Source: Ruminococcus callidus
Lineage (GTDB): Bacteria > Bacillota > Clostridia > Oscillospirales > Ruminococcaceae
Reading direction: 5' to 3'
Length of the DNA: 64,000 nt
NCBI RefSeq assembly: GCF_020709055.1
Contig: NZ_JAJFCK010000013.1
Coordinates: forward strand, 16,053-80,052
Shown: piece after piece, positions 29,012 through 46,101 of the stretch
How positions within the stretch are numbered: position 1 is the stretch's first letter
How the letters are laid out: each line of letters begins with the position of its first letter
Made by a program: the position numbers and the translations under genes
Notes under the pieces: model-generated
The model's database searches: none
Told to the model about the DNA's origin: nothing
The model's input: the letters and a program-made list of their open reading frames with translations, nothing else

Positions 29012-31552
29012 TTAACCAAATATTTTCTTTAAATAAGGAATGATCGCATCAAATAGTTTCTTACTCCAATTAGCATGAAATTCAGCAACTTGTTTCCAGT
29101 CTGACTCATTCAACAAATTTACTCCAGTTAATTCTTTCCAAATATAAGCTCCTTTGTAAGCATCTCCCCTGTCCCAGGCAACGGTTCCTCCAATCATTTC
29201 TTCAATCTCTGTTTTGTACTTCTTGATTTCATCAAATACAGCCTTATTTTTTTCTTTCTCTTTTGTATTTATCGCAATACCTACCGATGCACGTGATTGA
29301 GCAAAATAACAATAGACACTGCATCCGGAAATCCCAAAATATCCGTGTTTCGATGCTGATTTACTTGGGCAAACATTTTTAAATGCCCCTTTTCCATGCT
29401 TTTCATGAATAAAGTCCATTGCATATGTCCAGTAACGAATATAGAATGCATCAATGTCATCAGCAGACGATTGATTATCTTTCAGATAGAAAACCAAGTC
29501 CATTGGATCTATTCCATACAAAGCAAATATTTTTCTAAGGATAGATATCTTGCGTGCTGTGCTTGTGTTTTTTTCAACGTAGATATTCTCATCGATCTTT
29601 AATGCACTTCGCAGCTCTGATTCATTTGCTCTCACACATGAGGACAATTCAGATGCATTTTTATCACTATATGCAAGCGCTGTCAGAACAGACTTATCTT
29701 TTTGATGAAGATACTTCAGAATATGCTCAAACATATCAGCCCAGCTTGAAACATTCTGCTCTGTATTTTTATATGCATATTTGATGATATCCCTACCAGT
29801 CAAGTCGTAATCATCATCGTCCAATGTGCATGAATCAAACTCTTTTTTAGCTGGAACAAAATTGGTTTCAGGGTACTTCCATATCGTTACAGCATATTTT
29901 ATCATTTCCTCGTTGCGTTCTTCCAGTTCTGCAAGTCCCCATGTCTCTTTAGCTGCAATTCGCTGATTCATTCTTATTCCGCTGTGCTTATATCCAAATT
30001 CCTTTGCATCCCGTTTTTCTTCAAATGACGAATTGCTGAGATTTGGATTATAGCCTGTCAATGTCAAGTTTGCCAGACGGTGCAGCCATTCAGAATGAAT
30101 TTCTTCTGCATTTACGCCTAATGTCTCATTCCACGCAGGAGTAAGATGCTGTGGCATAATATGTTCGATAGAATAAGTATTATTATCAAGATGTGTAAAT
30201 ACGTCTTTTGTTTCAACTGTTCCATAATTTTCAAAACGCTCAAATAAATATGACTTGTACTTGCCTGTCATTTTATACACTTGTTTTGCAGACAGTGCGG
30301 ATTGGAATTCGTCATCATCCGGATATCGTCCACTCTCCTTCTTGGAAAGCAATGCGTATATAAATTTATCGACATAATGATCTGGTGTATTATCAAATTT
30401 CAGTATTTCCCGATTGAGATTCAAAAAAATCTTGTTTAATGCATTTGTCGGAACTTCGCAAATATTTCTTCGGAACAGATAGCTTTCGGTGATCAGGAAT
30501 ATTTGCAACAAATCATCTGTTGTAATTTTTTCATCTTGGTGTAATCTCAGTATTTCCAGGAAAAACGGACGTGTTACAGTGATATCAAGCCGTTTAAAAC
30601 GATAAAGGCAATCATCTAACTTCTGATTTCCAAATTCACTTTTGCAAGTGATCAACTTCTCGTAAAACCTTGCATATCTCAGCAAATCGGAAAGAAGAGT
30701 ATCAATGGGAAGACTCACGGTTTCAGCATATGACTTGAATGCTTTATATACATTGTTGATATTTGGTGTAATCTGCTGCTTGATGCTCAAATAATCTCTG
30801 ATAAAAGCACTCACATGATTTTCTGTACATTTTTCAATCTTTGCCCAGTAAGTATCAAAATAATGGCTCTGATCTTTTGCCGGTAAACTCATCAAAACAT
30901 AATTTCGGATCTTGTCCCCCTCATTCAGAGCAAGTCCCGTAGAATTTAAACTTTCAAATATCAGCTGTGCATTATCTTCTTTATCAAGTGTAATGCTGAT
31001 AATTTCGAGCTTGTCGATCGCATGATACAAGTCGATAACAGGAACCTCTTCACGCATAATCGTATCATAGAAGAATTGATAGTTGATCGTCAGATTAGAA
31101 CTCCTGTCATAGTCTTCTTCTGCCCCAAACAATCGATACAGAGCATCTCTATCACTCTTCACAGGAATTAATTTGATTCTATCATTTTCCTCTGCATATG
31201 GTGCTATGAGAAATCTCTGAGCGATCTGTTCATCCAGTCTATTCTCTTCTACGTTCACTTTTTCATTCGCAATCAGATTTTTAATTGCCAACAGCATCAA
31301 TGTGATGGTAGTCAGTCTTTGCTGTCCATCAATAACATGATATACAATTTTTCCACCAATAGGAACTACTTCCGATACGATACTGCCAAAGAAATGACTT
31401 TGCCGATCATTTTTTGCAATTTTGACTAAATCATCATAAAGCTGACGGCAGTTTTCATATTTCCAATCATATTTTCTCTGATAAACCGGTATGGCAAATC
31501 GTTTGTTCATGCCATCCAAAAACCATGTAATTCTATCCTCTGAACCTTTCAA
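29012..31552 (-). CDS. DUF262/DUF1524 nuclease (GmrSD-like type IV restriction)
   Basis: The 846-residue protein has an N-terminal DUF262/GmrS domain (FAIPVYQRKYDW near 20-30 and VIDGQQRLTT near 75), a DUF1524/GmrD His-Me nuclease motif YSIEHIMPQHL near residue 460, and a C-terminal DUF4268-like domain (VYCYFAQSRASVGIAI, IGGTVAWDRGDAYKGAY). GmrSD proteins use NTP to cut DNA with modified bases. The start is TTG 31,552 behind GGGAG. It follows hsdR by 50 bp and may be the last gene of the restriction operon, covering phages whose DNA modification defeats the type I enzyme. Confidence 0.85.
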   Translation of the reverse strand: MKGSEDRITWFLDGMNKRFAIPVYQRKYDWKYENCRQLYDDLVKIAKNDRQSHFFGSIVSEVVPIGGKIVYHVIDGQQRLTTITLMLLAIKNLIANEKVNVEENRLDEQIAQRFLIAPYAEENDRIKLIPVKSDRDALYRLFGAEEDYDRSSNLTINYQFFYDTIMREEVPVIDLYHAIDKLEIISITLDKEDNAQLIFESLNSTGLALNEGDKIRNYVLMSLPAKDQSHYFDTYWAKIEKCTENHVSAFIRDYLSIKQQITPNINNVYKAFKSYAETVSLPIDTLLSDLLRYARFYEKLITCKSEFGNQKLDDCLYRFKRLDITVTRPFFLEILRLHQDEKITTDDLLQIFLITESYLFRRNICEVPTNALNKIFLNLNREILKFDNTPDHYVDKFIYALLSKKESGRYPDDDEFQSALSAKQVYKMTGKYKSYLFERFENYGTVETKDVFTHLDNNTYSIEHIMPQHLTPAWNETLGVNAEEIHSEWLHRLANLTLTGYNPNLSNSSFEEKRDAKEFGYKHSGIRMNQRIAAKETWGLAELEERNEEMIKYAVTIWKYPETNFVPAKKEFDSCTLDDDDYDLTGRDIIKYAYKNTEQNVSSWADMFEHILKYLHQKDKSVLTALAYSDKNASELSSCVRANESELRSALKIDENIYVEKNTSTARKISILRKIFALYGIDPMDLVFYLKDNQSSADDIDAFYIRYWTYAMDFIHEKHGKGAFKNVCPSKSASKHGYFGISGCSVYCYFAQSRASVGIAINTKEKEKNKAVFDEIKKYKTEIEEMIGGTVAWDRGDAYKGAYIWKELTGVNLLNESDWKQVAEFHANWSKKLFDAIIPYLKKIFG

Positions 31553-31602: not shown

Positions 31603-34600
31603 TTACGCCACAATCTGTACAGCATTATTCTTAACGCTTTCAATCGCCTGAATCAATGCTGTTCTTGTTTTTGTATCAAACATCTTGATAAAGCTGTACG
31701 GCTTGTCAAACGGCGGTTTCATCAGTATTTTTATATCTTCAATATAACCGTTGTTTTCAATATGATTGATCACTTTCAAGATAAATGCAATTTGTTGCTG
31801 ATTGAGAGAACTGTCATTGATAAATGTCGAAAAAGCTGCCATTGCACTTTCATGGTCAAGTTTTGCAATCTTGCGGACGAGCAAACCAAAAGGTGTATCG
31901 CCATATTCCCGTTTGTAATCCTCGCTGTTGCCGAGCTCCTGCGTCAGAATTCTTTCCAGTTCCTGATAATCTTCCTGCATCAATGGGAGATTATGATTCA
32001 GCTTGTAGATGACTTCATCGTTTTTGTGTTCTTCCACATAACGATTTACCTTCTTACGATAATCTTCAAAGTCATATGCTGCATCCAAGGTTTCCCCTTC
32101 CCTTTGATTCATTACAGAATCATCAAGACTCGTGAAAATTTTTGGGCGATGTACGCCATCATTCAGAAATTGCATCAGATCACGCAGCTCTTTTCGCACA
32201 TATTCCAGTGCCAGAATGTCAATATTCTTCCAGAATTCTTCTGTTTGAACATCTTTAATTTGAGTCAATTTCTTCTGAATTTGTGGAATCGTTGCTTTCT
32301 TTTCCAACGACTGTGCAGTAATGCAAAGCTGCTTTTTCAGATATGCCATTGTCGGCAGCTGATCCATATTTGCAAGCATGAGTCCATACATGAAGTTGTC
32401 AAAACGCTTTGCAAATTCATCAGTATCATAGTTTTGGATAAGAGGAGCGATCTGCCTTTCCAATTCCAGCACATTCAAATCGGATAACGCAGTCCAGTTC
32501 TCTGGCTTCTTATATTTCTCTACATATTCTGTTTTCAGGCGTACTGATACCAGATCATATGATAAATCACATACTTCATGATTACATAAAGTGACAAGTT
32601 CAGAACGAAAGTCTTGGTATTCTGTATCTGTATAATTGCTGTCCTGCATGGCAAAAATCAATCTTGTCCGCTTATAGAATATATTTTCTGTTAAGGATTT
32701 GGTTTCTGCAGATTCATAGCCGTTCTGATGTTCACGAAAATACTCGAAGTTTCCACAATAGTCGAATATCAAAAAGCGTCGTTTGTCGGTATATTCTCCT
32801 TCAATGCCGTCGATACAGGTCAGATCTTTGCAAAGTCTTGTCCCTCTTCCGATCATCTGCCAGAACTTTGTTTTGGAACGCACTTTCTTGAAAAATACCA
32901 GATTGACACAGCTTGGAACATCTACGCCTGTATCCATCATATCCACTGAAACAGCGATCACAGGCATGTCTTTTTGTTTGAAATCCTCTATAACAGTCTG
33001 GGCATAGGTATCCTCACAAGTAACACGCTGGGCAAATGTACCGTTATATTTCGGATAGAGCTGATTGAAACGTTTTACAATAAATTCTGCATGCTCTTTA
33101 TTCTGAGCAAAAATGATCGTCTTGCCGAGTTTATCACCGCCTTCTACTTTGATGCCCCGCTCCATCAGATCCTGCAAAACCATATCAACTGTCTTTTCAT
33201 TAAATACAAACTGATTCAGCTGTGCAGACGGGATAAAGTCCGGCATTTGTCCGTCTTCCGTGAAATCTTCCTCGTACCGTTCTTTATCTTCATCTGAAAG
33301 ATCATCGTAAGTAATGCCCTCTTCCAGAAACTTGGTTTTTACTTCATAGTTATAATACGGTACAAGTACATGGTCGGTATAAACAGCGGTTTCATAATCA
33401 TAAGCATAGGTCGGCACACCATTTTCCACTTCAAAAAAGTCATATGTATTGCGGTCGACTTCCGTCTTTGGCGTTGCAGTCAGTCCGACCATAATTGCAT
33501 CGAAATACTCGAAAATTGCACGATATTTCTTGAAGATGCTTCTATGGCTTTCGTCCGTGATAATCAGGTCAAAATGGGCAGGTGAAAATAGCAGAATCCC
33601 GTCTTTTGTTTTCGTGCTGTCGATGGCGTTCAAAATGGTCGGATAAGTAGAAAATACGATTCTTGCGTTTTTATCGTCTTTATTGCTGCAAAGATTGCAG
33701 AGGGACATATCCGGCAGATAGTTCTTGAAATCGTCTTTTGCCTGTTTTACCAGAGCGGTTCTGTCCGCAAGAAACAGGATATTCGTTACATATCCGCCAC
33801 GGCTCAGAACATCGGTCAGACTGGAGGCAGTTCTTGTTTTCCCCGTGCCGGTCGCCATAACAAGCAACGCTTTTCTGAAACCTTTTTCAATATGCTCACA
33901 TACGGCACGAATCGCACCTTTCTGATAATAGCGGTCTGTGATTTTATCATCAATTGCGATATTTTGAAGATTTTTGCGGCTGTTTCGGCGATTCATCAGC
34001 TTTTCCAGATCGCCCAATGTGAAAAATCCGCTGACCTTTCGCTGCGGCGATGTCTGGTCGTCCCAGAAATAGGTTTCAAAGCCGTTGGTAGTGAACATCA
34101 TCGGTCTGCGTCCGAACTTTCGTTCCAAACAGTCCGCATATAAAACAGCCTGTTTTCTGCCGATATTCGGGTCTTTGCTGGTACGCTTTGCCTCGATTAC
34201 AGCAAGCGGTAAGCCATCCTTGCCGAAAAGCACGTAATCCGCATAACCTTTCTGACCGAGTACGCCATTCATGTCATTCACTTCGTATTCTTCCCAGACG
34301 TTTGCATCTGTTCCGTCAAAAATCCAGCCCATGAATTTCAAGTCCACATCAATGTATTTCTTTCGGGTTTCAAATTCGGAAATATCCACTGGCTGAAAGG
34401 TTCGGGTTTCCTGATGCTCTGTTTTATGGGCAGTCAGCGTTGCAGACATCGCTTGAATCTGTTCCTGTAATGCCTTGATTTCACTGTCTTTTTGTGTCAG
34501 AAGAGATTCCTGCTCCTTGATTTTTTTGGTGTCTACAACGATTTTTTCGGTCGGAATCAGAGCAGGGTCAAAATGGCGTTCCTGATACGTTTCGCCATAG

Positions 34601-34971
34601 CAATAATCGATCCATTCAATAAACTCAAAGAGATTTTCCAACGAAAGCAAAGCATCCGCCCTGCTGACAGCTTTTTCCGTATGAACCGAGAGATTCCCCA
34701 ACTTGATGATATTCGGGAGTTTTGCCCACGTCCAGCGGTCAACCGCATAGCGAAACGTTTCTTCGTGAATCAGCGATTGCAGATTATCCCGATACGGCAT
34801 TACAATGGAATTATCGGCAGAATAAACCCATTTCACAGCAAGTTCCAGTGCCTTTCGGCAGCCAACCGCACACATCGCAGGAGAGGAAGAAAACACTTTT
34901 TCTGCTTCGATTGTGGCTTTGGAAAATAATTGATAGTCTGGTATTTTGCTTAAAAATTCAAAGTTTGTCAT
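31603..34971 (-). CDS. hsdR: Type I restriction endonuclease, motor/nuclease subunit HsdR
   Basis: The 1122-residue subunit translocates and cuts unmodified DNA. It has an N-terminal DUF4145-like domain (about 1-120), a coiled coil (about 145-185), a PD-(D/E)XK nuclease (GYADYVLFGKDG, then VIEAKRTS with Glu260 and Lys262), the SF2 motor with Walker A VMATGTGKTRTA (about 371-382), DEAD-type LIITDESHRSIF and helicase motif VI QMIGRGTRL, and a C-terminal helical domain. Its ATG overlaps the hsdS stop as ATGA. All motifs look intact. Confidence 0.95.
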   Translation of the reverse strand: MTNFEFLSKIPDYQLFSKATIEAEKVFSSSPAMCAVGCRKALELAVKWVYSADNSIVMPYRDNLQSLIHEETFRYAVDRWTWAKLPNIIKLGNLSVHTEKAVSRADALLSLENLFEFIEWIDYCYGETYQERHFDPALIPTEKIVVDTKKIKEQESLLTQKDSEIKALQEQIQAMSATLTAHKTEHQETRTFQPVDISEFETRKKYIDVDLKFMGWIFDGTDANVWEEYEVNDMNGVLGQKGYADYVLFGKDGLPLAVIEAKRTSKDPNIGRKQAVLYADCLERKFGRRPMMFTTNGFETYFWDDQTSPQRKVSGFFTLGDLEKLMNRRNSRKNLQNIAIDDKITDRYYQKGAIRAVCEHIEKGFRKALLVMATGTGKTRTASSLTDVLSRGGYVTNILFLADRTALVKQAKDDFKNYLPDMSLCNLCSNKDDKNARIVFSTYPTILNAIDSTKTKDGILLFSPAHFDLIITDESHRSIFKKYRAIFEYFDAIMVGLTATPKTEVDRNTYDFFEVENGVPTYAYDYETAVYTDHVLVPYYNYEVKTKFLEEGITYDDLSDEDKERYEEDFTEDGQMPDFIPSAQLNQFVFNEKTVDMVLQDLMERGIKVEGGDKLGKTIIFAQNKEHAEFIVKRFNQLYPKYNGTFAQRVTCEDTYAQTVIEDFKQKDMPVIAVSVDMMDTGVDVPSCVNLVFFKKVRSKTKFWQMIGRGTRLCKDLTCIDGIEGEYTDKRRFLIFDYCGNFEYFREHQNGYESAETKSLTENIFYKRTRLIFAMQDSNYTDTEYQDFRSELVTLCNHEVCDLSYDLVSVRLKTEYVEKYKKPENWTALSDLNVLELERQIAPLIQNYDTDEFAKRFDNFMYGLMLANMDQLPTMAYLKKQLCITAQSLEKKATIPQIQKKLTQIKDVQTEEFWKNIDILALEYVRKELRDLMQFLNDGVHRPKIFTSLDDSVMNQREGETLDAAYDFEDYRKKVNRYVEEHKNDEVIYKLNHNLPLMQEDYQELERILTQELGNSEDYKREYGDTPFGLLVRKIAKLDHESAMAAFSTFINDSSLNQQQIAFILKVINHIENNGYIEDIKILMKPPFDKPYSFIKMFDTKTRTALIQAIESVKNNAVQIVA

Positions 34972-36035
34972 AAAATTTCACTCTCCTTATTTTCTTTCAA
35001 AGTGATAAATCTTGATTTGTCGACCTGTTGAACGAACTTTTCAAATTCATATTGTTCTTCAATACTCGGAATAGCATATTCAAAATTACGGATTTTTTGC
35101 ATATTGATCGATGCTTGAGCAACTTGAGATACAAAACTCATTATATAATCATGGCTATACATAAATAAATGAACAAGAAACACGGGACTAAGTTTTTTCT
35201 TATTAATAATTGAAATTTTAGCAACATTTGGAGCAAGATGATATTTATCATTTTCATCAACCATTGCGACATCACCAATTGTTCCAGCATAGGTCATCAG
35301 TATATCCCCTATATATAATCGAGAACGAGGTAATTTATGTGATGTTTCTCTATCAATATATTTAACATTATCAAGTATTAATTTTCCTTGCTTACAATTC
35401 AAGCCACGAAGCATAATTATTTCGCCAGAATCTTGATAGTTAATATACTCTGTAAATTCAAAACCAGCAAGTTTTGTTACGTCACATAATTCCCCAATTT
35501 TATGTCTTTTTTCTTTATCTCTACTTGTATCATTCGGATCTCCAAACATCTCCACAAATCGGGCTTTCACAAGCAAATCAAGCTTTTCAAGCTGCTGCTT
35601 GCGGTGGGTGATGATTTTTTCTATTTTAGATAATGTCGAAACAATTTTCTCTTGCTCAGATAAATCGCAAAGATTAAATTCTTCTCTTTTATAATCCTTA
35701 AAATAAATATGTGGAATTGTTGCACCAGTAAAATATTTTTCTAAGTGCATATAGCGAATAACATAGTATAGATATTTAGGAATCACTTTTTCATTTGGCA
35801 AAATGTACTGCATTGTTCCAATTACAGAAGTTTTCTCAGGCAACAACATTGTTCTACCTATTCCAGCACCGTCTTTTACAACTGCAATATACGGCTTTTC
35901 TTGGTGAAAAAAATCAACTTTTCCAATCAAACCAGATGCACCATATATTTCATATTCACCATTTTTGTCAATAACATCAGACTGTTTCAGATTAGATGAA
36001 CCTTTTTCGCATACATCTCCGAGTCTAACTCGCAT
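34968..36035 (-). CDS. hsdS: Type I restriction specificity subunit HsdS (copy 1)
   Basis: About 355 residues with two target-recognition domains joined by the conserved helix KLDLLVKARFVEMFGDP; a second conserved helix FVQQVDKSR ends the protein. I prefer ATG 36,035 (MRVRLGDVCEKGSS). A GTG at 36,071 overlaps the recombinase stop and adds 12 residues encoded by the 16-bp repeat region. The C-terminal tail is shorter than in copy 2 (no QAQMLFDSLMQEYFG), so the last helix may be truncated. It differs from copy 2 in both recognition domains, so it would give another DNA specificity. Confidence 0.9.
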   Translation of the reverse strand: MRVRLGDVCEKGSSNLKQSDVIDKNGEYEIYGASGLIGKVDFFHQEKPYIAVVKDGAGIGRTMLLPEKTSVIGTMQYILPNEKVIPKYLYYVIRYMHLEKYFTGATIPHIYFKDYKREEFNLCDLSEQEKIVSTLSKIEKIITHRKQQLEKLDLLVKARFVEMFGDPNDTSRDKEKRHKIGELCDVTKLAGFEFTEYINYQDSGEIIMLRGLNCKQGKLILDNVKYIDRETSHKLPRSRLYIGDILMTYAGTIGDVAMVDENDKYHLAPNVAKISIINKKKLSPVFLVHLFMYSHDYIMSFVSQVAQASINMQKIRNFEYAIPSIEEQYEFEKFVQQVDKSRFITLKENKESEIL

Positions 36036-36043
36036 AAATCCAG

Positions 36044-36059
36044 CTACAAACACAAATTT
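36044..36059. repeat. 16-bp direct repeat, copy at hsdS 1
   Basis: CTACAAACACAAATTT lies 8 bp before the ATG of hsdS copy 1 and is repeated exactly, same orientation, at 39,060-39,075 just before hsdS copy 2. The segment between the copies holds exactly hsdS 2, DUF2971 and the tyrosine recombinase gene. Confidence 0.8.
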
Positions 36060-36067
36060 GAGAAACC

Positions 36068-37036
36068 TCACCCCATAATTTTCTGATGAGAACTCTTCAC
36101 ATTGGCTTGATTCACCATTGCATATTGCATTGTAGTATCAATTTGTGAATGTCCGAGAATTTTTTGCACCTGTTCGATCGGCATTCCCTTATCAATTGCC
36201 CTTGTTGCCATTGTTCGACGGAACTTATGCGGATGAATTCGCTCCAGATCAATGCTTCTGCCAAGTTCCCGAATGCGAATTTCAACGCCGCTGATTTTCA
36301 AACGCTTATGCGGTGCATTTAATGTAACAAACAATGCCGCATTTGTATCCTGTCTGCTTTCAATATAGCTTTTCAGATGTACTTTTGCTTTTGCATCGAA
36401 ATATACACGGCGTTCCTTGTCGCCTTTTCCATACACAACACACTCCCGACGTTCCAGATCAATATCCTCAATATTCAGATTGACAAGTTCCCCAACACGC
36501 ATACCGGTTGAATACAGCAGATCGATCATTGCCAGATCACGGCATTCTGTGCAATGATCTCTAAGCCTTTCGATTCCCTCATCGGAAATCACCGTTTTCA
36601 CTGCCTTTTTCGTCTTGATTTTGTGGATTCGCTTCATAGGACTTTTCAGAATGTAGTCCTCTTCTTCCAGCCACGAAAAGAAACTGGAAATATTTCTGCG
36701 AACATTGTCAACGGTCACATTGGAACAATTATTGATTTTCTGATAATCTGAAAGATATTCCCGCATATTCTCTGTGGTAACTTTCCTCACAGGAAATGGA
36801 ATTGTTGCGATCATATGCGTGATCGTCTTGCTGTAATAGTCGATCGTTCTATCTGAACAGCCCTCGATTCTTTTCGCATCCAGAAACATTTTCAAATACT
36901 CGTTATTGTTGATCTCTGATTTTTCCGCCTCTTTTTCCGAAAAGACTTTCAAAATGACTTCTTGCAGCTTTTTCATCTGGCTAACATTCAAGTATTCAGC
37001 CATTTCATTCAGGATCGTCATGATTTTCTCTTCCAT
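36068..37036 (-). CDS. Tyrosine recombinase (XerC/D-like) inside the type I system
   Basis: The 322-residue protein has an N-terminal SAM-like core-binding domain (about 40-130, YLKMFLDAKRIEGCSDRTI) and a catalytic domain with the Arg in STGMRVGELVNL, Lys in YGKGDKERRV, HxxR in HPHKFRRTMATR, His in KILGHSQ and Tyr in MQYAMVN. All catalytic residues are present. ATG 37,036 follows AAAGAGG. Such recombinases beside hsdS genes typically shuffle specificity genes; a 16-bp repeat at 36,044 and 39,060 is the natural candidate site here. Confidence 0.92.
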   Translation of the reverse strand: MEEKIMTILNEMAEYLNVSQMKKLQEVILKVFSEKEAEKSEINNNEYLKMFLDAKRIEGCSDRTIDYYSKTITHMIATIPFPVRKVTTENMREYLSDYQKINNCSNVTVDNVRRNISSFFSWLEEEDYILKSPMKRIHKIKTKKAVKTVISDEGIERLRDHCTECRDLAMIDLLYSTGMRVGELVNLNIEDIDLERRECVVYGKGDKERRVYFDAKAKVHLKSYIESRQDTNAALFVTLNAPHKRLKISGVEIRIRELGRSIDLERIHPHKFRRTMATRAIDKGMPIEQVQKILGHSQIDTTMQYAMVNQANVKSSHQKIMG

Positions 37037-37088
37037 ATTGGTATACCTCTTTCATTAGTAGTGTACCAACATCCCTGCGACCATTGTT

Positions 37089-37916
37089 CTATTTAATTAT
37101 CTCATCGTATAACTTGTCCAAAGAATAGATTCTGTTTTCTTTTTCATCTGCTGTGCCATTTTCAAGCAGATAATATTGAGAATGGTTCTTATCAGATTTA
37201 ATATTGAATATTCGACAAGCAGATGGAACAGCTTCAATGATGACTTCTTTAATTTCTATATTAATATATTCGCCCAATATTATTATAGCAATTTCATCTT
37301 GTTCAAAATCAAAGTAAACCTTTTCGCTTTCATCTGATTTTTGGGCTTTACCTATAATTCTATACTCTCTTTCATAGCTCCAATCATTGTTTTTATAATT
37401 ATACTCATTTTCAATTGCAGCTTTTAGATCACAAGCCCACCATTGCTTTTTATCTATTATATCTGTATACTGCATCGGTGTAATTCCTTCAAATTTCTTA
37501 TATGTAGAAAAACCAATGCATACTCCTCTACAATTATTGGCATAATGTGCCCATAATGGAGCAGAAAAACAGTTTTCTGACAGAGAAAGTATTCTACACT
37601 TTTTCTTTTCAGCTTCAAACAATCCTATGTCTTTTGATAGATAATCTACATTTCCGCCTTCAAATGGGTCATTAAGAAATTTTGCAGGTGACATAAACAG
37701 TCTGTGATTTTGCAGAATGTCGATTGTACGTGTTAAATCAATTGAAAAATCCACACTACGATATTTGAAAATCAGATGAGGTATCTTATTTTTCCAGTGA
37801 TCATAAGACTCTGTCTCGCACCGCTTTTCGTTCTTATATTGTTCATACTCTTCAGCTTGACGCTGACTTTCCTCAATTTCATATTCAGTTGGTTCATATA
37901 TTTCCATAATCATCAC
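37089..37916 (-). CDS. DUF2971 domain protein
   Basis: The 275-residue protein contains FKYRSVDFSIDLTRTIDILQ, LFMSPAKFLNDPFEG, LSENCFSAPLWAHYANNCRG and SYEREYRIIG, the conserved blocks of DUF2971, a family of unknown biochemical role often found in defence islands. Its start overlaps the hsdS 2 stop (TGATG), so it is translated with it. It lies inside the unit bracketed by the 16-bp repeats and would move with the hsdS cassette. Confidence 0.8.
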   Translation of the reverse strand: MMIMEIYEPTEYEIEESQRQAEEYEQYKNEKRCETESYDHWKNKIPHLIFKYRSVDFSIDLTRTIDILQNHRLFMSPAKFLNDPFEGGNVDYLSKDIGLFEAEKKKCRILSLSENCFSAPLWAHYANNCRGVCIGFSTYKKFEGITPMQYTDIIDKKQWWACDLKAAIENEYNYKNNDWSYEREYRIIGKAQKSDESEKVYFDFEQDEIAIIILGEYINIEIKEVIIEAVPSACRIFNIKSDKNHSQYYLLENGTADEKENRIYSLDKLYDEIIK

Positions 37917-39052
37917 CCAAAATACTCCTGCATCAGCGAATCAAACAACATCTGAGCCTGCTCCAGATCGTTTTGAATTGCAACTCTTGATTTGTCGACT
38001 TGTTGGACGAAGTCGGCGAATTGGGTTTGGAGGTCGAGGGGTGGTAACATAATACTTAATTTTTTAGTCATTGCAATAGACAAATATGCTACCGTTGAGC
38101 CCGCTTGCATTTCCTCTATTTGTTTTTTTATTCCATGCATAGAAAATAAATAAGATATATAAACGGGAATAATTTTTTCACTATAACTTGAAAGCCAAGT
38201 AATCATTCCATCTTGAAAATAAAATCTATCAGTATCTTTAACAATATAACATCTTCCAAGTGTGCCTCGTGCAGTAACCAATATATCGTCTTTTTGTGGA
38301 ACAAGCCCATTATTTAATAAATCACTATACTTTTCTTCTGAAATGAACAAGTCGCAAGTTTCAGTATTATAATCCATTCGATTGACTAAATCTGATATTC
38401 TCAAAAATGGAACGCCTTCATTAGTTAGTTCACTTTGATATACCCTTTTACTTGAACTTACTGTACAAAGCTCTGCCATTTTGAAAGTATCCCAGTTGTA
38501 ATTATTGAATTCAGGATCCCCAAACATCTCGACAAATCGGGCTTTTACAAGCAAGTCAAGCTTTTCAAGCTGGGTGCGGCGATGGGTTATTATTGATTGG
38601 AGTTTGTCGAGGGTGGCAGCGATTTCTTGTTGTTTATTAAGTGGTGGAAATGGAACAAGCACATTATCAAAATCTTTTTTGGTAATATGCTTCATTGTTG
38701 CACCATGTGTCCTCTTTTCCATTTCTTTAAGATTATATTTTACTGCAAATACAAAATATTTTTTATTTACATCTAATTTATCAAATACAGCTTTGAAAAT
38801 ATGTTGATTTAATAATGCTTTTCCTCTATTCCATTCATACACGCCAAGGCTTGCAGACCAAGAAATCAAAATATCTCCATTATTCAGTTCAATTTTTTTA
38901 GGGTATTCTCCATTATAGAATCCCAAGTCATAAGAATTTCCTGTTAAATCTTGTATTCTTATAATTGGAAGTCCCTTTGTTCCTCTGTCTTCTGGTTTAA
39001 AAGCATAACCATTCACATAAGTGGCAATATCTCCAAGCTTTTTATGTTCCAT
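37913..39052 (-). CDS. hsdS: Type I restriction specificity subunit HsdS (copy 2)
   Basis: The 379-residue protein opens MEHKKLGDIATYVNGYAF and has two recognition domains joined by THRRTQLEKLDLLVKARFV, ending in FVQQVDKSRVAIQNDLEQAQ and LMQEYFG. It lies directly behind hsdM and is the copy likely used now. The central block (38,518-38,571) and C-terminal block (37,985-38,011) are nearly identical in DNA to copy 1 (35,542-35,594 and 35,009-35,036), which allows recombination between recognition domains. Confidence 0.93.
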   Translation of the reverse strand: MEHKKLGDIATYVNGYAFKPEDRGTKGLPIIRIQDLTGNSYDLGFYNGEYPKKIELNNGDILISWSASLGVYEWNRGKALLNQHIFKAVFDKLDVNKKYFVFAVKYNLKEMEKRTHGATMKHITKKDFDNVLVPFPPLNKQQEIAATLDKLQSIITHRRTQLEKLDLLVKARFVEMFGDPEFNNYNWDTFKMAELCTVSSSKRVYQSELTNEGVPFLRISDLVNRMDYNTETCDLFISEEKYSDLLNNGLVPQKDDILVTARGTLGRCYIVKDTDRFYFQDGMITWLSSYSEKIIPVYISYLFSMHGIKKQIEEMQAGSTVAYLSIAMTKKLSIMLPPLDLQTQFADFVQQVDKSRVAIQNDLEQAQMLFDSLMQEYFG

Positions 39053-39059
39053 TACAACC

Positions 39060-39075
39060 CTACAAACACAAATTT
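39060..39075. repeat. 16-bp direct repeat, copy at hsdS 2
   Basis: Exact copy of CTACAAACACAAATTT from 36,044-36,059, in the same orientation, 7 bp before the ATG of hsdS copy 2. Confidence 0.8.
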
Positions 39076-39104: not shown

Positions 39105-40649
39105 TCACACATTCAGCATCTTTTTCAGTTCGCTGAGTTCTGTTTCGATCACTTTGTTCAGATCTTCAATTTCCACCATAATTTCACTGGTCGGCGGATA
39201 TTCCACGGCAACATATTCCGTTTTCTTGTATTTATTGATCGAAAGGTCATAATCATTGTCCACAATTTCCTGTTTTGGCACAAAGAAACTCTGTTCAGTG
39301 CGTTCCCTGTTCGTTTCGCCGTCCAGATTGTGAAAACGTGCGATAATATCGGGAATGTCGTTTTCTGCGATCTCCGAACGCTTGTCGTCCAGACTGAAAC
39401 CGTCCGCTTTCATATCGTAGAACCAGACGTTTTCCGTTCCGCCTGCTTCCGTCTTGACAAATACCAGAACCGCTGTCGAAACTCCCGCATATGGCTTGAA
39501 TACACCACTCGGCATAGAAATAACTGCTTTTAGCTGGTGATTTTCGATCAGTTCCTTTCTGATAGACTTATGAGCCTTGCTTGAACCGAACAATACCCCG
39601 TCCGGAACGATGCAGGCACAGCGTCCGCCTTTCTGCATCAGACGCAGGAACAGAGCAAGGAACAACAGTTCCGTCTTTTTTGTATTGGTAACGGCTTTCA
39701 GATTGTCGTGGATACTTTCCGCATCGACTGTCCCCTTAAACGGCGGATTTGCAAGGCAGACCGTATATTTGTTGCTGACATTATTCTGCTTGGAAACGCT
39801 GTCTTTATAGTCAATATCCGGATTTGTGATTGAATGCAGCATCAGGTTCATGGCAGCAATGCGAAGCATGGTATAATCCGTGTCATAGCCGGAAAACGTC
39901 TTGTTTGCGAAGTTTTCCCACTGTTCGTCTGTCATCGTATTTTCGTAATGTCTGCGAATATATTCTGCTGAGGAAACCAGAAAGCCGGCTGTACCACAAG
40001 CCGGATCACAGATGATGTCGTCCGGTGTCGGTGCGACCAGTTCCACCATCATCTCACGGATATGTTTCGGCGTGCGGAACTGTCCGTTCTGACCGGCGGT
40101 GCTGAGTTTTCCCAGCATATACTCGTACAAATCGCCCTGCATATCCAGATCGGCGATGTCATGAATATATAAGTCGTCCAGACCGGTGATAATTTTCTGC
40201 AAGATCTGTGCGTTCGGAATCAGGAAAACAGCACTGTCCATATACTTGGAGAATGCAGTCTGGCTGTTTCCGCTTTCTGTATCCTCTTCAATTTCAATCA
40301 GTTCGCCGTTTTCGTCGAAGTCCGGCAGCTTGCCATATTTCATCTTCTTGACAGCCGGAAATACCCGCTGTGAGATGATCTCAAAAATCTCACGGGAATC
40401 CCTGTCCTTGAATTTGCTCCAACGCATAGATTGCCCCACTGCCGACTGTGGGAAAATCAGGTCAGCTTCGTCTGCTTCCATTCCCATGGAATGTGCAAAT
40501 TCTTCTGTTTCAATTTCTTTTTCGTCCAAAGAACGAATGAACATCAGATAGGTCAGCTGTTCAATAACGGTCAGCGGATTGGTAATACCGCCTGCCCAGA
40601 TATCCGTCCATATTTTATCGATTTTATTTTTTATAACTCCTGTAATCAT
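39105..40649 (-). CDS. hsdM: Type I restriction DNA methyltransferase subunit HsdM
   Basis: The 514-residue N6-adenine methyltransferase has an N-terminal helical domain (ITNPLTVIEQLTYLMFIRSL), the SAM-binding motif ICDPACGTAGFLVSS and the catalytic NPPF in CLANPPFKG. With HsdS it methylates the host target; with HsdR it restricts. It is the first gene of the operon, with ATG 40,649 after GGAGG. It is intact by length and motifs. Confidence 0.95.
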   Translation of the reverse strand: MITGVIKNKIDKIWTDIWAGGITNPLTVIEQLTYLMFIRSLDEKEIETEEFAHSMGMEADEADLIFPQSAVGQSMRWSKFKDRDSREIFEIISQRVFPAVKKMKYGKLPDFDENGELIEIEEDTESGNSQTAFSKYMDSAVFLIPNAQILQKIITGLDDLYIHDIADLDMQGDLYEYMLGKLSTAGQNGQFRTPKHIREMMVELVAPTPDDIICDPACGTAGFLVSSAEYIRRHYENTMTDEQWENFANKTFSGYDTDYTMLRIAAMNLMLHSITNPDIDYKDSVSKQNNVSNKYTVCLANPPFKGTVDAESIHDNLKAVTNTKKTELLFLALFLRLMQKGGRCACIVPDGVLFGSSKAHKSIRKELIENHQLKAVISMPSGVFKPYAGVSTAVLVFVKTEAGGTENVWFYDMKADGFSLDDKRSEIAENDIPDIIARFHNLDGETNRERTEQSFFVPKQEIVDNDYDLSINKYKKTEYVAVEYPPTSEIMVEIEDLNKVIETELSELKKMLNV

Positions 40650-40874: not shown

Positions 40875-41390
40875 TTATCTATTCCAAAAATTTCTGTCAT
40901 ACTCCTGTGGATAAAGTTCATGGCCCTGTTCTATCAAAATATCGCATTTCAGAGCAACATAAGCTTCATTTGTGCCAAGTTCCCTGGCACATTGCTGAAT
41001 CGTATAACCATAAGTATGAATAAGATCGAGCAGTTCTCCGTCATCAATACGCAGAGCAGCACCGAAGAGATTTGCTTCACGTTCCACCTTACAGGTCATA
41101 TTGTAAAGCGAAAACTCAAGAAGTCCTTGCTTGCCTTTGGCAAGAGATTTGTGATAAATATAGTGTCCTAATTCGTGACACAGTGCATTATATGCATCTT
41201 CCTCACAAAGGTTTTCACTCAGAAAAATAAAGTGATTTCTTTTTATATATCTGTAACAAGCCGCCAGTTTTACCGATTCCAGGGGCATGATATTTATTCC
41301 GAGAGCATCTGCAATCACGAACGGGTCACGGCTGTTATATTTTTTTACAAGTTTTTCGGCATCTTTTGCTATCTGTAGCACAGTTGGCAT
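40875..41390 (-). CDS. ImmA/IrrE-type metallopeptidase
   Basis: The 171-residue zinc protease has HELGHYIYHK near residue 85 and a downstream VEREANLFGAAL Glu motif, as in ImmA, which cleaves the phage-type repressor to induce the element after DNA damage. ATG 41,390 follows GGGAGG; frames open further upstream have no ribosome site. It is 22 bp behind the repressor gene and co-transcribed with it, the usual repressor/anti-repressor pair. Confidence 0.9.
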   Translation of the reverse strand: MPTVLQIAKDAEKLVKKYNSRDPFVIADALGINIMPLESVKLAACYRYIKRNHFIFLSENLCEEDAYNALCHELGHYIYHKSLAKGKQGLLEFSLYNMTCKVEREANLFGAALRIDDGELLDLIHTYGYTIQQCARELGTNEAYVALKCDILIEQGHELYPQEYDRNFWNR

Positions 41391-41412
41391 ATAAAACCTC
41401 CCATCGATGAGA

Positions 41413-41832
41413 TCAGTCTTTTCTATATTTCTTAGGCGTAAAACGGCTGTTTTTCTCTTTTGCTGTAAAATATGCATCCGTGAATGCTCTCATCAAAGCG
41501 TCCTTATCTTCTTCCGGCAATTCACCACCGGCAAACAAGCCTGAAACATCGTCAATCAGTTCACGCAGGTCACGTACTCCTCTGCTGCCATATTCCTCTC
41601 TTGCTTTTTCGATGATACTTCCTTCTTCTCCAATGAGATTTGCCACAGAAACACCAAGTGCAGCCGCAAGTCTTGAAGCAATATCGACTGTCGGGTATCG
41701 TTCCCCGGATTCATAGTTGGCTATTGTTTTAGAAGAAATATTCGCAAGTCCCGCAAGCTTTTCACGGGTCAGCTTTTTTGCTTTTCTTGCCTCCAAAAGG
41801 CGTTCGCCAAAATTATTCCCTTGTAACTCCAT
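41413..41832 (-). CDS. Cro/CI-type (XRE) repressor
   Basis: The 139-residue protein has an N-terminal helix-turn-helix (LTREKLAGLANISSKTIANY ESGERYPT) over residues 10-65 and an acidic helical tail. ATG 41,832 follows AGTAGG; in-frame codons upstream lie in the promoter region. It is paired with ImmA and divergent from the early genes, so it is the lysogeny-type repressor of the prophage. Confidence 0.9.
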   Translation of the reverse strand: MELQGNNFGERLLEARKAKKLTREKLAGLANISSKTIANYESGERYPTVDIASRLAAALGVSVANLIGEEGSIIEKAREEYGSRGVRDLRELIDDVSGLFAGGELPEEDKDALMRAFTDAYFTAKEKNSRFTPKKYRKD

Positions 41833-41891
41833 AATATTACCTACTTTCAGTAATGTTTTTCCACTATAAGAAAATATTTTCCATTTTCCTA

Positions 41892-41920
41892 TTGACAAAC
41901 GTAGAAAACAGTTGTATAAT
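41892..41920 (+). promoter_or_regulatory. Early rightward promoter of the prophage
   Basis: TTGACA (41,892-41,897), 17 bp, TATAAT (41,915-41,920): both boxes are perfect consensus. It drives the early genes starting at 42,062 and must be tightly repressed. Confidence 0.85.
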
Positions 41921-41926
41921 AATATG

Positions 41927-41940
41927 CGAACGAACGTTCT
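41927..41940. promoter_or_regulatory. LexA/SOS-like box between the divergent promoters
   Basis: CGAACGAACGTTCT fits the Gram-positive LexA consensus CGAAC-N4-GTTC, with only the last base off. It lies 6 bp after the rightward -10 and 12 bp before the leftward -10, so a bound protein would block both. It could alternatively be the operator of the element's own repressor. Confidence 0.65.
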
Positions 41941-41952
41941 AATTTCAATATT

Positions 41953-41981
41953 ATTATACTATATACTTATCAAAATGTCAA
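41953..41981 (-). promoter_or_regulatory. Repressor promoter
   Basis: On the minus strand TTGACA (41,976-41,981), 17 bp, TATAAT (41,953-41,958), both perfect. It transcribes the repressor and immA. Its start region overlaps the LexA-like box. Confidence 0.85.
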
Positions 41982-42061
41982 GTATTTTTAAGAAAAAAGG
42001 TTCTATTTATTTTAGAGGAGGCTGATCTGTATAAGAAATAAATTTCTTGAAAGGAGTTCAT

Positions 42062-42247
42062 ATGCAAAGAATAAGCATTCGTAACATCAACAGTCAAAAG
42101 AAAGTCAAACCAAGACTTTTTGACCTTATCAAGGAAGAAGACAATCGTGAATGGATCGTGGAGATCCAAAATAAAGAAGGAAAAGAAAAAGTTCCTTTAT
42201 CAGCAATACTGATTCAGATAACCGCCGCAATGCAATCCGGGAAATAA
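42062..42247 (+). CDS. Small basic protein, first early gene
   Basis: The 61-residue basic protein (RISIRNINSQKKVKPRLFDL, WIVEIQNKEGKEKVPLSAIL) starts at ATG 42,062 after AAAGGAG. I do not recognise it; its position opposite the repressor suggests a Cro- or antirepressor-like role, but no helix-turn-helix is obvious. A large hairpin terminator follows at 42,353. Confidence 0.65.
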   Translation: MQRISIRNINSQKKVKPRLFDLIKEEDNREWIVEIQNKEGKEKVPLSAILIQITAAMQSGK

Positions 42248-42352
42248 GCCGAGTCGTAATCCGAATGTGAGATTCATGAACCGTATATTTCCGGATAATC
42301 AAATAAAATGGCTTTCGAGCTAACCGTTCCGTACAAGCTATCGAGAACAAAC

Positions 42353-42411
42353 AGCCGAGTCATCATTATGGGTATAGGATAACTATGCCTATGTGATGGC
42401 TCGGCTTTTTT
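42353..42411 (+). terminator. Long hairpin terminator
   Basis: AGCCGAGTCATCA pairs with TGATGGCTCGGCT through a further inner stem (ATGGGTATAG with CTATGCCTAT, bulged) and is followed by TTTTTT. About 100 bp upstream GCCGAGTC appears once more (42,249), able to compete for the 3' arm, so an alternative fold is possible. Confidence 0.75.
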
Positions 42412-42599
42412 ATGTGCTTGTGAAGCTATACTTCTATTTTCGTCAAAATAGATTTTGCTTTCCATAACAATATTAGAAATATATGTTTTTCTTTTATATC
42501 GTGTTCTATGTATTTTGTAGGGGATATTGACTTTTCTGTCTTTATATAGAAAGGATATTTTTTTCAATCGTTATATATAGTAGAACCCGTCCCAAGCAC

Positions 42600-42808
42600 G
42601 ACATTAAACTGCTTATCAATATCCACTTCACCAACTGATCATTGGTGGCTTGAAGGTGTATGTTGACTACAAGTAAATAACACGGCTGCCTTTCAAGCTG
42701 GTGGCTGCATATCAGAACGGAGAAATCTCCGTCCGGAATGCGGTCAGCTTTGCTATACCCATTTGCAGCCAGGATTCCTCCGTTCAAAAGAAAACGGAGG
42801 AATTTTTT
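42600..42808 (+). ncRNA. Structured leader of the sigma-like gene, possible cis-regulatory RNA
   Basis: A run of stems fills the 200 bp before ATG 42,809: CACCAA/TTGGTG (near 42,640), GGCTGC near 42,707 with GCAGCC near 42,765, CGGAG-AAAT-CTCCG inside it, and TCCTCCGTT/AACGGAGGA, which buries the ribosome site. No frame of the leader reads as a protein with a ribosome site. I know no riboswitch class that fits. The rest of the 42,412-42,600 gap shows nothing clear. Confidence 0.5.
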
Positions 42809-43396
42809 ATGTATTATGTGCCAATTGAAATGACAAAAGCGTATGTCAGAGAGAACGAGATCTATGCAACTGTAAATGGCGAGATCATCAGGATCACACC
42901 GGATATGATCAAGAAGATCATACGCAATGGTGTCGTAACAGAAGTCTATTTTTCTGAAGTGGAAAACAAAGAAATCTATGACGAATATATGCGTTCTGTC
43001 TGGAGAGAAGAAAAAGCACTTGAAAGAGAAGACAGATGCTGGATTCCAAATGGAAAAGGAAAAATTGTACGCTGTACAGGAAACTGTGCTTCTTGTGAAC
43101 ACCGCAATGAAAATGCAATGCTTTCCATTGAAGCCGCAGAAGAAGACGGCGGATTAAATCTTGAAGCTACAAGTGAAAAACCCGATGCAATTGTTGAGGA
43201 CGCAGAACTATTGAAAGCTTTATGGGAGAGAGTCGGAGAACTTTGTGACGAGGATCAAACTATCATTAAAATGTTCAGTAACGGGGCATCTGAACGTGAA
43301 ATTGCCACCAAGGTTAATCTTTCTCAGAAAGGCGTAAATAAACGTAAAAAGACACTTTTTGAGCTTCTGAAAAATTATTTGAAAGATTTTTTCTGA
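42809..43396 (+). CDS. Sigma-70-like / helix-turn-helix regulator
   Basis: The 195-residue protein starts at ATG 42,809 after an ACGGAGGA site that lies in a hairpin. The C-terminal KMFSNGASEREIATKVNLSQ and KGVNKRKKTLFELL is a sigma region-4 type helix-turn-helix. The middle has a cysteine pair CTGNCASCEH that may bind metal. The N-terminal half (YVPIEMTKAYVRENEIYATV) is typical of small phage and ICE regulators in Ruminococcaceae. It probably controls downstream early genes. Confidence 0.7.
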   Translation: MYYVPIEMTKAYVRENEIYATVNGEIIRITPDMIKKIIRNGVVTEVYFSEVENKEIYDEYMRSVWREEKALEREDRCWIPNGKGKIVRCTGNCASCEHRNENAMLSIEAAEEDGGLNLEATSEKPDAIVEDAELLKALWERVGELCDEDQTIIKMFSNGASEREIATKVNLSQKGVNKRKKTLFELLKNYLKDFF

Positions 43397-43452
43397 AAAT
43401 GGTACTCAAAACAAAAATATCTGTCCTATGTATAGTGAAGGGAGGTAAACCT

Positions 43453-43665
43453 ATGGACAAGCAGAAAGAACTTATCGCACTTTTGTTTGCAATTAGTGTG
43501 GTATCCGAACGACTGGCAAGAAACATGACAATTCTTGTACAACGAGCAAAGGAGGGAAAATCAAATGGAACCAATCATGCAACTTATCAACACGCTGAAT
43601 GCTCTGAATGTCACAATGCAAAAGCTGACAGAAAAAATGACATCAGAGTACATCAACACATTTGA
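43453..43665 (+). CDS. Small phage protein of unknown function
   Basis: The frame starts at ATG 43,453 after GGAGG and runs 70 residues, beginning MDKQKELIALLFAISVVSER. The last third overlaps the next gene by 100 bp in another frame and looks less coding (HAECSECHNAKADRKND), so the 3' end may be degenerate. The first 38 residues form an amphipathic helix with a good ribosome site, so translation is likely. Confidence 0.45.
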   Translation: MDKQKELIALLFAISVVSERLARNMTILVQRAKEGKSNGTNHATYQHAECSECHNAKADRKNDIRVHQHI

Positions 43666-43897
43666 GGAGATCTGCACAGAATCTGACCCACCAAAGCAAC
43701 CAGAACCTGTGCAGGAAGAAAAGCCTGTTGATCGTTCGGCAGTCAGAGCAAAACTTGCAGAACTGACACGCCTTGGATTTTCAGACGAAGTTAAGGCATT
43801 GCTTAAGAAGCATGGGGCGGAAAGGCTGTCAGCGGTCGATGATGCGGAATTTCCTGCACTAATGAAGGAGGCTGAGGCACTTGGCAGCAAGGCATAA
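43565..43897 (+). CDS. Phage early protein, probable rRNA-type accessory of DUF2800 operon
   Basis: The 110-residue acidic protein starts at ATG 43,565 after AAGGAGGG. It has an N-terminal coiled helix (LINTLNALNVTMQKLTEKM), a Pro/Glu linker and a C-terminal helical part (RAKLAELTRLGFSDEVKALL, HGAERLSAVDDAEFPALM). The latter resembles a small domain I associate with phage genes upstream of DUF2800, with no known function. Its end overlaps the DUF2800 start by 17 bp, so they are coupled. The accessory role is a guess from position only. Confidence 0.6.
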   Translation: MEPIMQLINTLNALNVTMQKLTEKMTSEYINTFEEICTESDPPKQPEPVQEEKPVDRSAVRAKLAELTRLGFSDEVKALLKKHGAERLSAVDDAEFPALMKEAEALGSKA

Positions 43898-45014: not shown

Positions 45015-45017
45015 ATC

Positions 45018-45575
45018 ATGGCAAAGAAATATGTAAATCCAACAAAGGTAGTCACAGGCGAATGCAGATTCAGCTACGCAAATCTCTGGGAAGCCAAGGC
45101 AATGGACGAAAACAGCAAACCGAAGTACAGCGTTTCCCTTATCATTCCGAAGTCTGACACCAAGACTATCGCAAAAATTAAGGCAGCGATTGAAGCTGCT
45201 TATGAAGAGGGCAAAAGCAAGCTCAGCAACGGAAAATCCGTCCCTTCTCTCAGTTCAATCAAGACACCACTTCGTGACGGAGATACCGACAGACCGGACG
45301 ATGAAGCCTATGCAAACAGCTATTTCGTTAATGCAAACTCAATCACTGCTCCGGGTATTGTTGATGCAGACCGTCAGCAGATTCTGACACACAGCGAGAT
45401 CTACAGCGGCATTTACGGCAGAGCCAGTATCACGTTCTACGCATTCAACACCAAGACTTCTCGTGGCATTGCCTGCGGATTACAGAATGTCCAGAAACTC
45501 CGTGACGGTGATCCCCTCGGCGGACACAGCAGTGCGGAAGAAGACTTCGCTGATGATGAGGATTTTCTTGACTAA
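45018..45575 (+). CDS. DUF2815 protein, probable single-strand DNA-binding
   Basis: The 185-residue protein has VTGECRFSYANLWEAKAMDE, KYSVSLIIPKSDTKTIAKIK and GRASITFYAFNTKTSRGIAC, ending in an acidic tail (SSAEEDFADDEDFLD) like single-strand-binding proteins. DUF2815 is thought to have an OB-like fold and stands next to DUF2800 and polymerase A in phage replication modules. ATG 45,018 follows GGAGG. Confidence 0.85.
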   Translation: MAKKYVNPTKVVTGECRFSYANLWEAKAMDENSKPKYSVSLIIPKSDTKTIAKIKAAIEAAYEEGKSKLSNGKSVPSLSSIKTPLRDGDTDRPDDEAYANSYFVNANSITAPGIVDADRQQILTHSEIYSGIYGRASITFYAFNTKTSRGIACGLQNVQKLRDGDPLGGHSSAEEDFADDEDFLD

Positions 45576-45580
45576 CAGGA

Positions 45581-45604
45581 CTTTTGGACAAATTTGTCCA
45601 AAAG
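45581..45604. promoter_or_regulatory. 24-bp perfect palindrome after DUF2815
   Basis: CTTTTGGACAAA is followed directly by its inverse TTTGTCCAAAAG, starting 5 bp after the DUF2815 stop. No loop and no T-run, so it is more likely a protein-binding site than a terminator. Confidence 0.6.
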
Positions 45605-45701
45605 AGATCTTTTAAAAATATTGTAGTTTTGCTCATTTTTGAGCAGAACTACAGATAGATTCAGACGGGTGGGCGTTTGGCTGAAAAGCTGGGTGGGTAA
45701 A

Positions 45702-45729
45702 TAAAAAATCCCGTCATTTCTGACGGGAT
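45702..45729 (-). terminator. Terminator of hicAB
   Basis: On the minus strand ATCCCGTCA-GAAA-TGACGGGAT is followed by TTTTTTAT, 5 bp after the hicB stop. Confidence 0.85.
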
Positions 45730-45733
45730 AAGA

Positions 45734-46096: not shown

Positions 46097-46101
46097 AGTG
46101 G

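Follow-up and report, generated by a model that had tools for sequence, protein, structure and literature searches.

We analyzed a type I restriction-modification (R-M) locus in a 64,000-nucleotide stretch of a Ruminococcus callidus genome (contig NZ_JAJFCK010000013.1, positions 16,053 to 80,052), here called the window; positions below count from its first letter. We estimate a probability of roughly 0.78 that this locus is a self-shuffling type I R-M system, with a tyrosine recombinase of its own and three kinds of recombination site that accompany each of its two specificity (hsdS) genes: an upstream site (U), a central site (C) and a tail site (T). This reading is carried by the anatomy of the locus, the conservation of the sites, the codon-level constraint on them, the matching of their spacers within loci and exchange between genomes.

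In the proposed mechanism, the recombinase encoded at the locus would act on U, C and T sites. These share their arms, lie in direct orientation and have spacers specific to each kind. Because spacers match only within the same kind, recombination is predicted to join like with like (U × U, C × C or T × T). Paired sites lie ~3 kb apart, and each event would excise a circle of that size (3016 bp for U, 2978 bp for C and 2975 bp for T) carrying the recombinase, and would leave one complete hsdS behind hsdM. If a circle re-entered at a site of another kind, the domains would be recombined, and two hsdS genes could then yield as many as four specificities. New domains and defense cargo could also arrive on circles from other cells.

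Operon anatomy and the three kinds of site

The R-M operon is tightly packed on the minus strand in the order hsdM, hsdS2, DUF2971, tyrosine recombinase, hsdS1, hsdR, and its hsdR, hsdM and hsdS genes carry the family domains of a type I system (Pfam, PADLOC). The genes and sites are:

39105..40649, minus strand: hsdM, type I methyltransferase subunit, 514 aa (Pfam N6_Mtase 3e-63, HsdM_N; PADLOC MTase_I)
39060..39075, minus strand: U site of hsdS2, AAATTTGTGTTTGTAG, 6-nt spacer TTTGTG; exact match to the other U, conserved in related loci
37913..39052, minus strand: hsdS2, specificity subunit directly behind hsdM, predicted active copy (Pfam Methylase_S 2e-45)
38532..38545, minus strand: C site of hsdS2, AAAGCCCGATTTGT, spacer GCCCGA
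37985..37999, minus strand: T site of hsdS2, GTCGACAAATCAAGA, spacer TCAAGA
37089..37916, minus strand: DUF2971 cargo gene, phage-defense candidate family PDC-S31 (Pfam DUF2971 4e-5; PADLOC PDC-S31 3e-35)
36068..37036, minus strand: tyrosine recombinase, XerA/integron-integrase-like, intact (Pfam Phage_integrase 1e-37; NCBIfam NF040815 above cut-off)
36044..36059, minus strand: U site of hsdS1, AAATTTGTGTTTGTAG, spacer TTTGTG; between the recombinase stop and the hsdS1 start, as in relatives
34968..36035, minus strand: hsdS1, second specificity subunit, predicted stored copy (Pfam Methylase_S 1e-29)
35554..35567, minus strand: C site of hsdS1, AAAGCCCGATTTGT, spacer GCCCGA
35010..35024, minus strand: T site of hsdS1, GTCGACAAATCAAGA, spacer TCAAGA
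31603..34971, minus strand: hsdR, type I restriction subunit, 1122 aa (Pfam ResIII, EcoEI_R_C, HSDR_N; PADLOC REase_I)

The full-length recombinase reaches 248.5 bits with the XerA-like model NF040815 (curated cut-off 220) and has the R, HxxR, GH and Y motifs, which we take to be catalytic. hsdS2 starts at an ATG at 39052 and hsdS1 probably at an ATG at 36035; an alternative in-frame GTG at 36071 overlaps the recombinase stop. The two HsdS proteins are 33% identical over 281 positions. We infer that hsdS2, next to hsdM, is alone active and that hsdS1 is stored, because only the upstream hsdS was reported active in the 2+2 arrangement of the pneumococcal translocating variable restriction (tvr) locus (PMC6265443).

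An earlier note on this DNA had pointed to a 16-bp direct repeat ahead of both hsdS genes, and we confirmed it. CTACAAACACAAATTT occurs exactly at 36044-36059 and 39060-39075, with no other copy in the window at three or fewer mismatches. In the sense of the genes it reads AAATTTGTGTTTGTAG and lies 7 bp before the hsdS2 ATG and 8 bp before the likely hsdS1 ATG. The copies enclose hsdS2, DUF2971 and the recombinase, as the note had described, and its proposal that a ~3-kb circle would be excised to place hsdS1 behind hsdM fits a site that is conserved and matched within loci. In a chance test by shuffling, with up to three mismatches allowed, 47 of 100 shuffles gave at least two such matches. 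This test alone was insufficient, and we rejected a chance origin because the site is conserved across loci.

We searched for relatives of the recombinase in one genome per species (84,980 species) and used the best 80 of 223, which were 65-88% identical. With two viral contigs these gave 82 loci, or 83 sequences with the window; numbers such as L001 below denote single loci. A same-strand hsdS lay upstream of the recombinase in 71 and downstream in 64 of the 80 loci, counted within the fetched stretch (some contigs end early). Behind the 84 recombinase stops inspected, we observed the recurrent form AAATT-NNNN-TTTGT(A/G)GGGATGA. The 38 U forms that fitted a strict pattern seeded a weight matrix with a threshold of 13 bits. 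At least one upstream-type site reached the threshold in 70/83 sequences and at least two in 57/83. Matches at 13 bits or more numbered 153, seeds and central hsdS matches included, versus 10 in a control read backwards.

The center of U varied between loci yet agreed inside one locus. The central 4 nt of the two best U sites were identical in 51/57 loci (partner shuffling: mean 12.3, maximum 23 in 10,000). In 3 of the 6 mismatching loci (L001, L008, L019) the script had picked another site, and a matching pair was listed there. By column, the within-locus excess was found at the four central columns (0.93-0.96 vs 0.37-0.72), with a smaller one at column 14 (0.70 vs 0.46) and column 19 (0.70 vs 0.58). 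Tyrosine recombinases are known to require matching crossover spacers, and the pattern at the center of U is what a spacer held to that requirement would look like.

Several loci departed from the common U layout. A variant with a right arm like TTTGTCGAGG, not TTTGTAGGG, was seen in L019, L023, L025, L031, L044, L049, L057, L060 and L064, and in several of these it was not directly before hsdS. In L068 (4194-7948) hsdM lies between two diverging hsdS genes that have the same upstream site, so the two site copies are inverted and recombination between them would flip hsdM. Array-like layouts were found in L022 (5217-6233), where a cargo gene lies between two U-like sites, and in L065 (2708-8996), where a GmrSD-like gene lies among three U-hsdS units.

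The upstream repeat is one of three site types; the other two were absent from the earlier note. They lie inside each hsdS, C at the central KARFVE codons, which separate the two target recognition domains (TRDs), and T at the tail (V)DKSK codons, and are nearly fixed at the DNA level. In C, two 9-bp arms in almost perfect inverted repeat enclose the 6-nt spacer (CTCATCAAA-GCCCGA-TTTGTCGAG), as would be expected of a Xer-like site. U, C and T share arms and differ in their 6-nt spacers, each of which occurs twice in the window. The note had called the central and 3' blocks of the two genes near-identical. This was not so for the blocks as a whole (74% over 119 nt and 80% over 41 nt), but it holds for the site cores of 14-15 nt, which are exactly identical between hsdS1 and hsdS2. 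The domain swaps it envisaged are possible, and the C and T sites explain them better than homology of long blocks.

Constraint at C and T was concentrated on the site codons. The reference for synonymous codon bias, measured as divergence, was codon usage in the same 136 genes. Across C (123 genes) the bias in bits was CTC 1.5, ATC 1.9, AAA 0.4, GCC 2.6, CGA 2.1, TTT 0.3, GTC 1.7 and GAG 0.9, with 0.0-0.4 at neighboring codons. Across T (99 genes) it was GTC 2.4, GAC 1.8, AAA 0.5, TCA 1.4, AAA 0.5 and GTT 1.3, and neighboring codons were mostly below 0.3, four of them reaching 0.43, 0.57, 0.74 and 0.86. Spacers agreed within the locus in 57/58 loci for C (shuffled mean 40.8, maximum 47) and in 45/46 for T (shuffled mean 32.5, maximum 39). 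In all 60 loci with the three kinds of site, the window included, no spacer was common to different kinds on either strand.

These data bear on a simpler explanation, a static hsdS duplication in which the blocks are kept for protein function, occasional homologous recombination swaps domains and the recombinase is a bystander or serves another use. Type I loci are known to exchange TRDs by homologous recombination within conserved blocks. Breaks at C and T do fall at domain borders, and some hsdS genes that have no recombinase in view carry the central codon form too. Protein function would not, however, account for U, which is mostly intergenic yet conserved and matched within the locus. Nor does it fit a constraint focused on the site codons, including GCC (13%) and CGA (18%), which are rare elsewhere in these genes, or rare spacers common to both hsdS genes (9/10 loci for C, 7/8 for T). 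In most of the 80 loci, moreover, two hsdS genes flank the recombinase. We consider a static duplication unlikely.

Exchange between loci

We observed block replacement between closely related loci. L008 and L010 are 98.4% identical on the hsdM side (BLAST; 93-100% in 150-bp steps), fall to ~40% at U, where the spacer differs too, and return to 99-100% near the hsdR start (BLAST 97.5% there). Two further pairs, L013/L017 and L048/L053, have one break at U and another behind the recombinase. A U-to-C piece is common to L006 (Catonella) and L013 (Lachnoanaerobaculum) at 91%, and the first-position TRD1 of L013 (U to C) sits second in L017 at 97%, against 86.5% for the hsdM stretch. C-to-T pieces are common to L038/L064 (97%) and L026/L046 (92%). 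In loci with such common pieces, hsdM was less alike or gave no match at 85%. Alignment ends in the hsdM-hsdR interval fell within 20 bp of a site in 157/298 cases versus 18 for random positions; this count covers pairs from both sides, and one side only gave 76/146 versus 9.4. For C and T the excess is confounded with the borders of the domains.

The pieces of the window locus likewise have nearest relatives that differ piece by piece. hsdM is nearest L066/L018 (77%), hsdR nearest L018 (72%) and the recombinase nearest L001 (88%). At 66-73% identity, the first domain of hsdS1 is nearest L031/L022/L026 and the second nearest L013; for hsdS2 the first is nearest L025, with L066 close behind, and the second nearest L011. 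From these alignments, exchange between genomes appears to have happened at the sites.

Loci without the recombinase were also found. Among 397 sampled genomes of one family, 31 had the recombinase at E ≤ 1e-90, at least 65% identical in 13 and 47-60% in the others; relatives of this lower identity mostly have the inverting layout. L123 consists of hsdM, U, a single hsdS containing C and T, and hsdR; L124 is laid out alike but gave no U match; L120 has a tandem U-hsdS-U-hsdS. These fit putative excised or cassette-array states. The earlier note had proposed a cassette that can leave or be exchanged, to be sought by aligning the locus in related strains. The replaced block of L008/L010, between near-identical flanks from U, and the recombinase-less single-hsdS loci L123 and L124 are consistent with that.

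The same observations would suit an evolutionary cassette module, integron-like, in which hsdS genes and defense cargo are exchanged rarely between strains and little switching occurs within a clone. Domains common to loci of different genera, block replacement and diverse defense-type cargo agree with it, as do the tandem arrangement without recombinase in L120 and the three U-hsdS units of L065. On the other hand, that a second hsdS is kept intact, with the same spacers as the first, suggests ongoing local use, and the analogous pneumococcal locus is reported to rearrange in culture (PMC6265443). We regard rare exchange of this kind as a tenable alternative, less probable than self-shuffling at the locus.

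Several findings weigh against self-shuffling. No U-type match reached the threshold in 13/83 sequences, and 26/83 had fewer than two, although some contigs were truncated. The right-hand break of L008/L010 lies ~40 bp ahead of T, not inside it. Breaks at C and T coincide with the borders of variable domains, and homologous recombination could give some of them. The recombinase-less loci could reflect decay and not reversible excision. Binding of the sites by the recombinase, the spacer rule, the circles and their reintegration are all deduced from sequence patterns.

The C codon form is also not strictly linked to the recombinase. Control hsdS genes from 30 loci of 60 genomes (27 loci with no recombinase in view) yielded only 3 genes with the motif. 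All 3, with no recombinase in view, carry CCCGATTT (L147, L158 and L161; L147 on a 3.3-kb contig). These genes are few and weigh against a strict link. A codon-degenerate C pattern gave 12 matches in 10/397 genomes, 11 of them of the GCCCGATTTGTN form; 6 of the 10 genomes had a recombinase match and 4 did not. Three of these 4 (G009, G255 and G368) carry GCCCGATTTGT, of the GCCCGATTTGTN form, and G114 uses other codons. Such genes may be remnants or stored cassettes, comparable to L120, L123 and L124, or the codon form may have another cause. The 14-nt C pattern occurred in 32/397 genomes versus 5/397 when read backwards, and 23 of the 32 had no recombinase match. In one place each from 20 of those 23 genomes, 9 were in hsdS by profile, one of them (L128) with a weaker recombinase-like frame nearby, and 11 were outside hsdS. 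Because so many occurrences lack a recombinase match or lie outside hsdS, the 14-nt pattern alone is unspecific.

Recombinase clades and known systems

Excision-reintegration at a type I locus is already known from SpnIV/tvr of Streptococcus pneumoniae and its recombinase TvrR. As described in PMC6265443, tvr has two repeat types (midpoint/5' side and tail), forms circles and rearranges mainly through TvrR. The earlier note had set this locus apart from inverting loci; in view of tvr, that contrast is not new in itself. tvr and the window locus share the order hsdM, specificity sequences, small genes, tyrosine recombinase, specificity sequences, hsdR. In the window, same-strand hsdS genes flank the recombinase between hsdM and hsdR, and direct repeats lie at the midpoint and tail of hsdS, as in tvr. 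Excision and reintegration have experimental support in tvr, according to the same source.

The window locus differs from tvr in recombinase clade and site code. We used L188 (Lactobacillales) to stand in for tvr and its recombinase TvrR; it has the tvr layout, and its recombinase is preceded by a Fic/Doc-family gene and a 78-aa frame with no Pfam match. The L188 and window recombinases are 55% identical and fall in separate clades. In L188, U and C share the spacer TCCCGA and T differs, whereas the window and 59 other loci have a separate spacer for each of U, C and T; accordingly, the window lacks one repeat common to the midpoint and the position ahead of the 5' half. Beside the recombinase tvr has a toxin-antitoxin-like pair, tvrAT, where the window has DUF2971. 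In L188, the right sides of U1 and of the site behind the recombinase (reverse-complement coordinates 4720 and 7615) contain GAGGAGGTGG, and the upstream site may double as a ribosome-binding site for whichever hsdS is joined to it.

A recombinase tree (FastTree, 142 tips, midpoint root, some genomes twice) separated two clades with supports of 0.991 and 0.999, and tips were classed by a simple rule on the orientation of nearby hsdS genes. The window clade (94 tips) had 71 direct, 2 inverted and 21 undecided tips. The other (48 tips) comprised the L188 group of 6 (4 direct, 2 undecided) and 42 others (34 inverted, 4 direct, 4 undecided).

We considered whether C and T could be the inverted partners of an inversion-type phase switch. 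Their arms are indeed mutual inverted repeats (GATTTGTCGA is common to both on opposite strands), and recombinase relatives near 55-59% identity often lie in loci with opposed half-hsdS genes. The C and T spacers nevertheless differ in 60/60 loci, and the window clade is largely direct. Inversion is therefore highly improbable as the working of this locus, and we rejected an inverting type I switch for the window clade on the direct orientation (both hsdS genes on the minus strand) and the unlike C and T spacers.

Inverting relatives are informative for comparison. Loci of the SpnD39III/ivr type resemble the window locus in that at least two hsdS genes and a recombinase at the locus alter specificity, and differ in having inverted repeats (PMC7394358). 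The REBASE survey software described there looked for inverted repeats and reports such loci in Ruminococcus species; because of that design, direct-repeat loci lay outside its target. Plasmid loci of L. salivarius, Lactococcus and Enterococcus faecium (L083-L088) have a recombinase homologue 58-59% identical to that of the window, flanked on each side by pieces of hsdS; among the plasmids of four L. salivarius strains there are three different arrangements. Unlike the window locus, these loci are inversion-capable, with half-hsdS genes in opposite orientation in L084-L088. The site recurs inverted in L085-L088, and in several lactic acid bacteria the midpoint site recurs inverted at the tail. 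For L083 and L084, there was no inverted pair of at least 14 nt between distinct places among those listed.

Integrons resemble the window locus in their XerA/integron-integrase-like recombinase, a site adjoining its gene and exchangeable gene units. In the window the sites are instead short, double-armed and partly coding, and the units are specificity genes plus defense-type cargo. A literature search, with most subscription papers and all bioRxiv preprints outside its reach, listed work on tvr, on inverting loci and on domain movement, and among the papers listed we found no description of the three-site direct-repeat version.

Cargo genes, surroundings and implications

The gap between the upstream hsdS and the recombinase was at least 200 bp in 44/71 loci. 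We hand-chose 93 of 141 open frames from this gap and three others, nearly all of at least 100 aa and on the gene strand, excluding hsdS/hsdR frames and about five further such frames; with the window DUF2971 this made 94. The commonest families, among 25 of 46 shown, were DUF3990 (23), Bro-N (8), YhcG nuclease (4) and HepT-like (3), and TIR, AbiJ, AbiH, RhuM and others had one or two matches each. Many of these proteins match PADLOC defense candidates, and the window cargo matches PDC-S31. These are defense candidates by family match; the name DUF2971 points to no mechanism.

Related genes lie elsewhere in the window. A DUF3990 gene (28451-28918), from the commonest cargo family, and a small partner (together 28018-28918) stand behind a GmrSD-like gene. 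The latter (29012-31552), with DUF4268, is directly behind hsdR and has 'Orf5' as its best PADLOC match. GmrSD-like genes also occur after hsdR in L074 and among the hsdS genes of L065.

Behind hsdM, positions 40875-58662 are phage-like, with metallo-protease, repressor, exonuclease, DNA polymerase, helicase and ParB/methyltransferase families, and a prophage or mobile element may carry the R-M operon. The operon had no match in the phage collection searched, and hsdM had none in the nearest virus record, a 27.8-kb piece. Two large serine recombinases (12064-13641 and 22222-23823) and a relaxase (10036-11379) lie elsewhere in the window, which makes the region rich in mobile elements.

Across these systems, the type of rearrangement appears to go with the spacer relations rather than with the fold of the enzyme. 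At even odds, we propose that type I specificity switching is run by a single recombinase superfamily through a spacer code in the codons of hsdS, in which shared arms recruit the enzyme and the 6-nt spacers set the outcome. Three mutually incompatible spacers, as in the window clade, would permit only excision and exchange of whole cassettes or domains. Identity of U and C, the tvr layout seen in one locus, would give wandering 5' halves, and a midpoint site inverted at the tail, as in L. salivarius-type loci, would give inversion. The same sites would let bacteria trade recognition domains and small defense genes across genera in an integron-like pool.

Direct-repeat, excision-type switching is a kind of mechanism known from pneumococcal tvr. 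The sites described here are legible from sequence alone. If the spacer rule holds, the possible rearrangements, and with them the methylation patterns, could become predictable for many genomes, and the traffic of recognition domains and defense genes between species could be traced.

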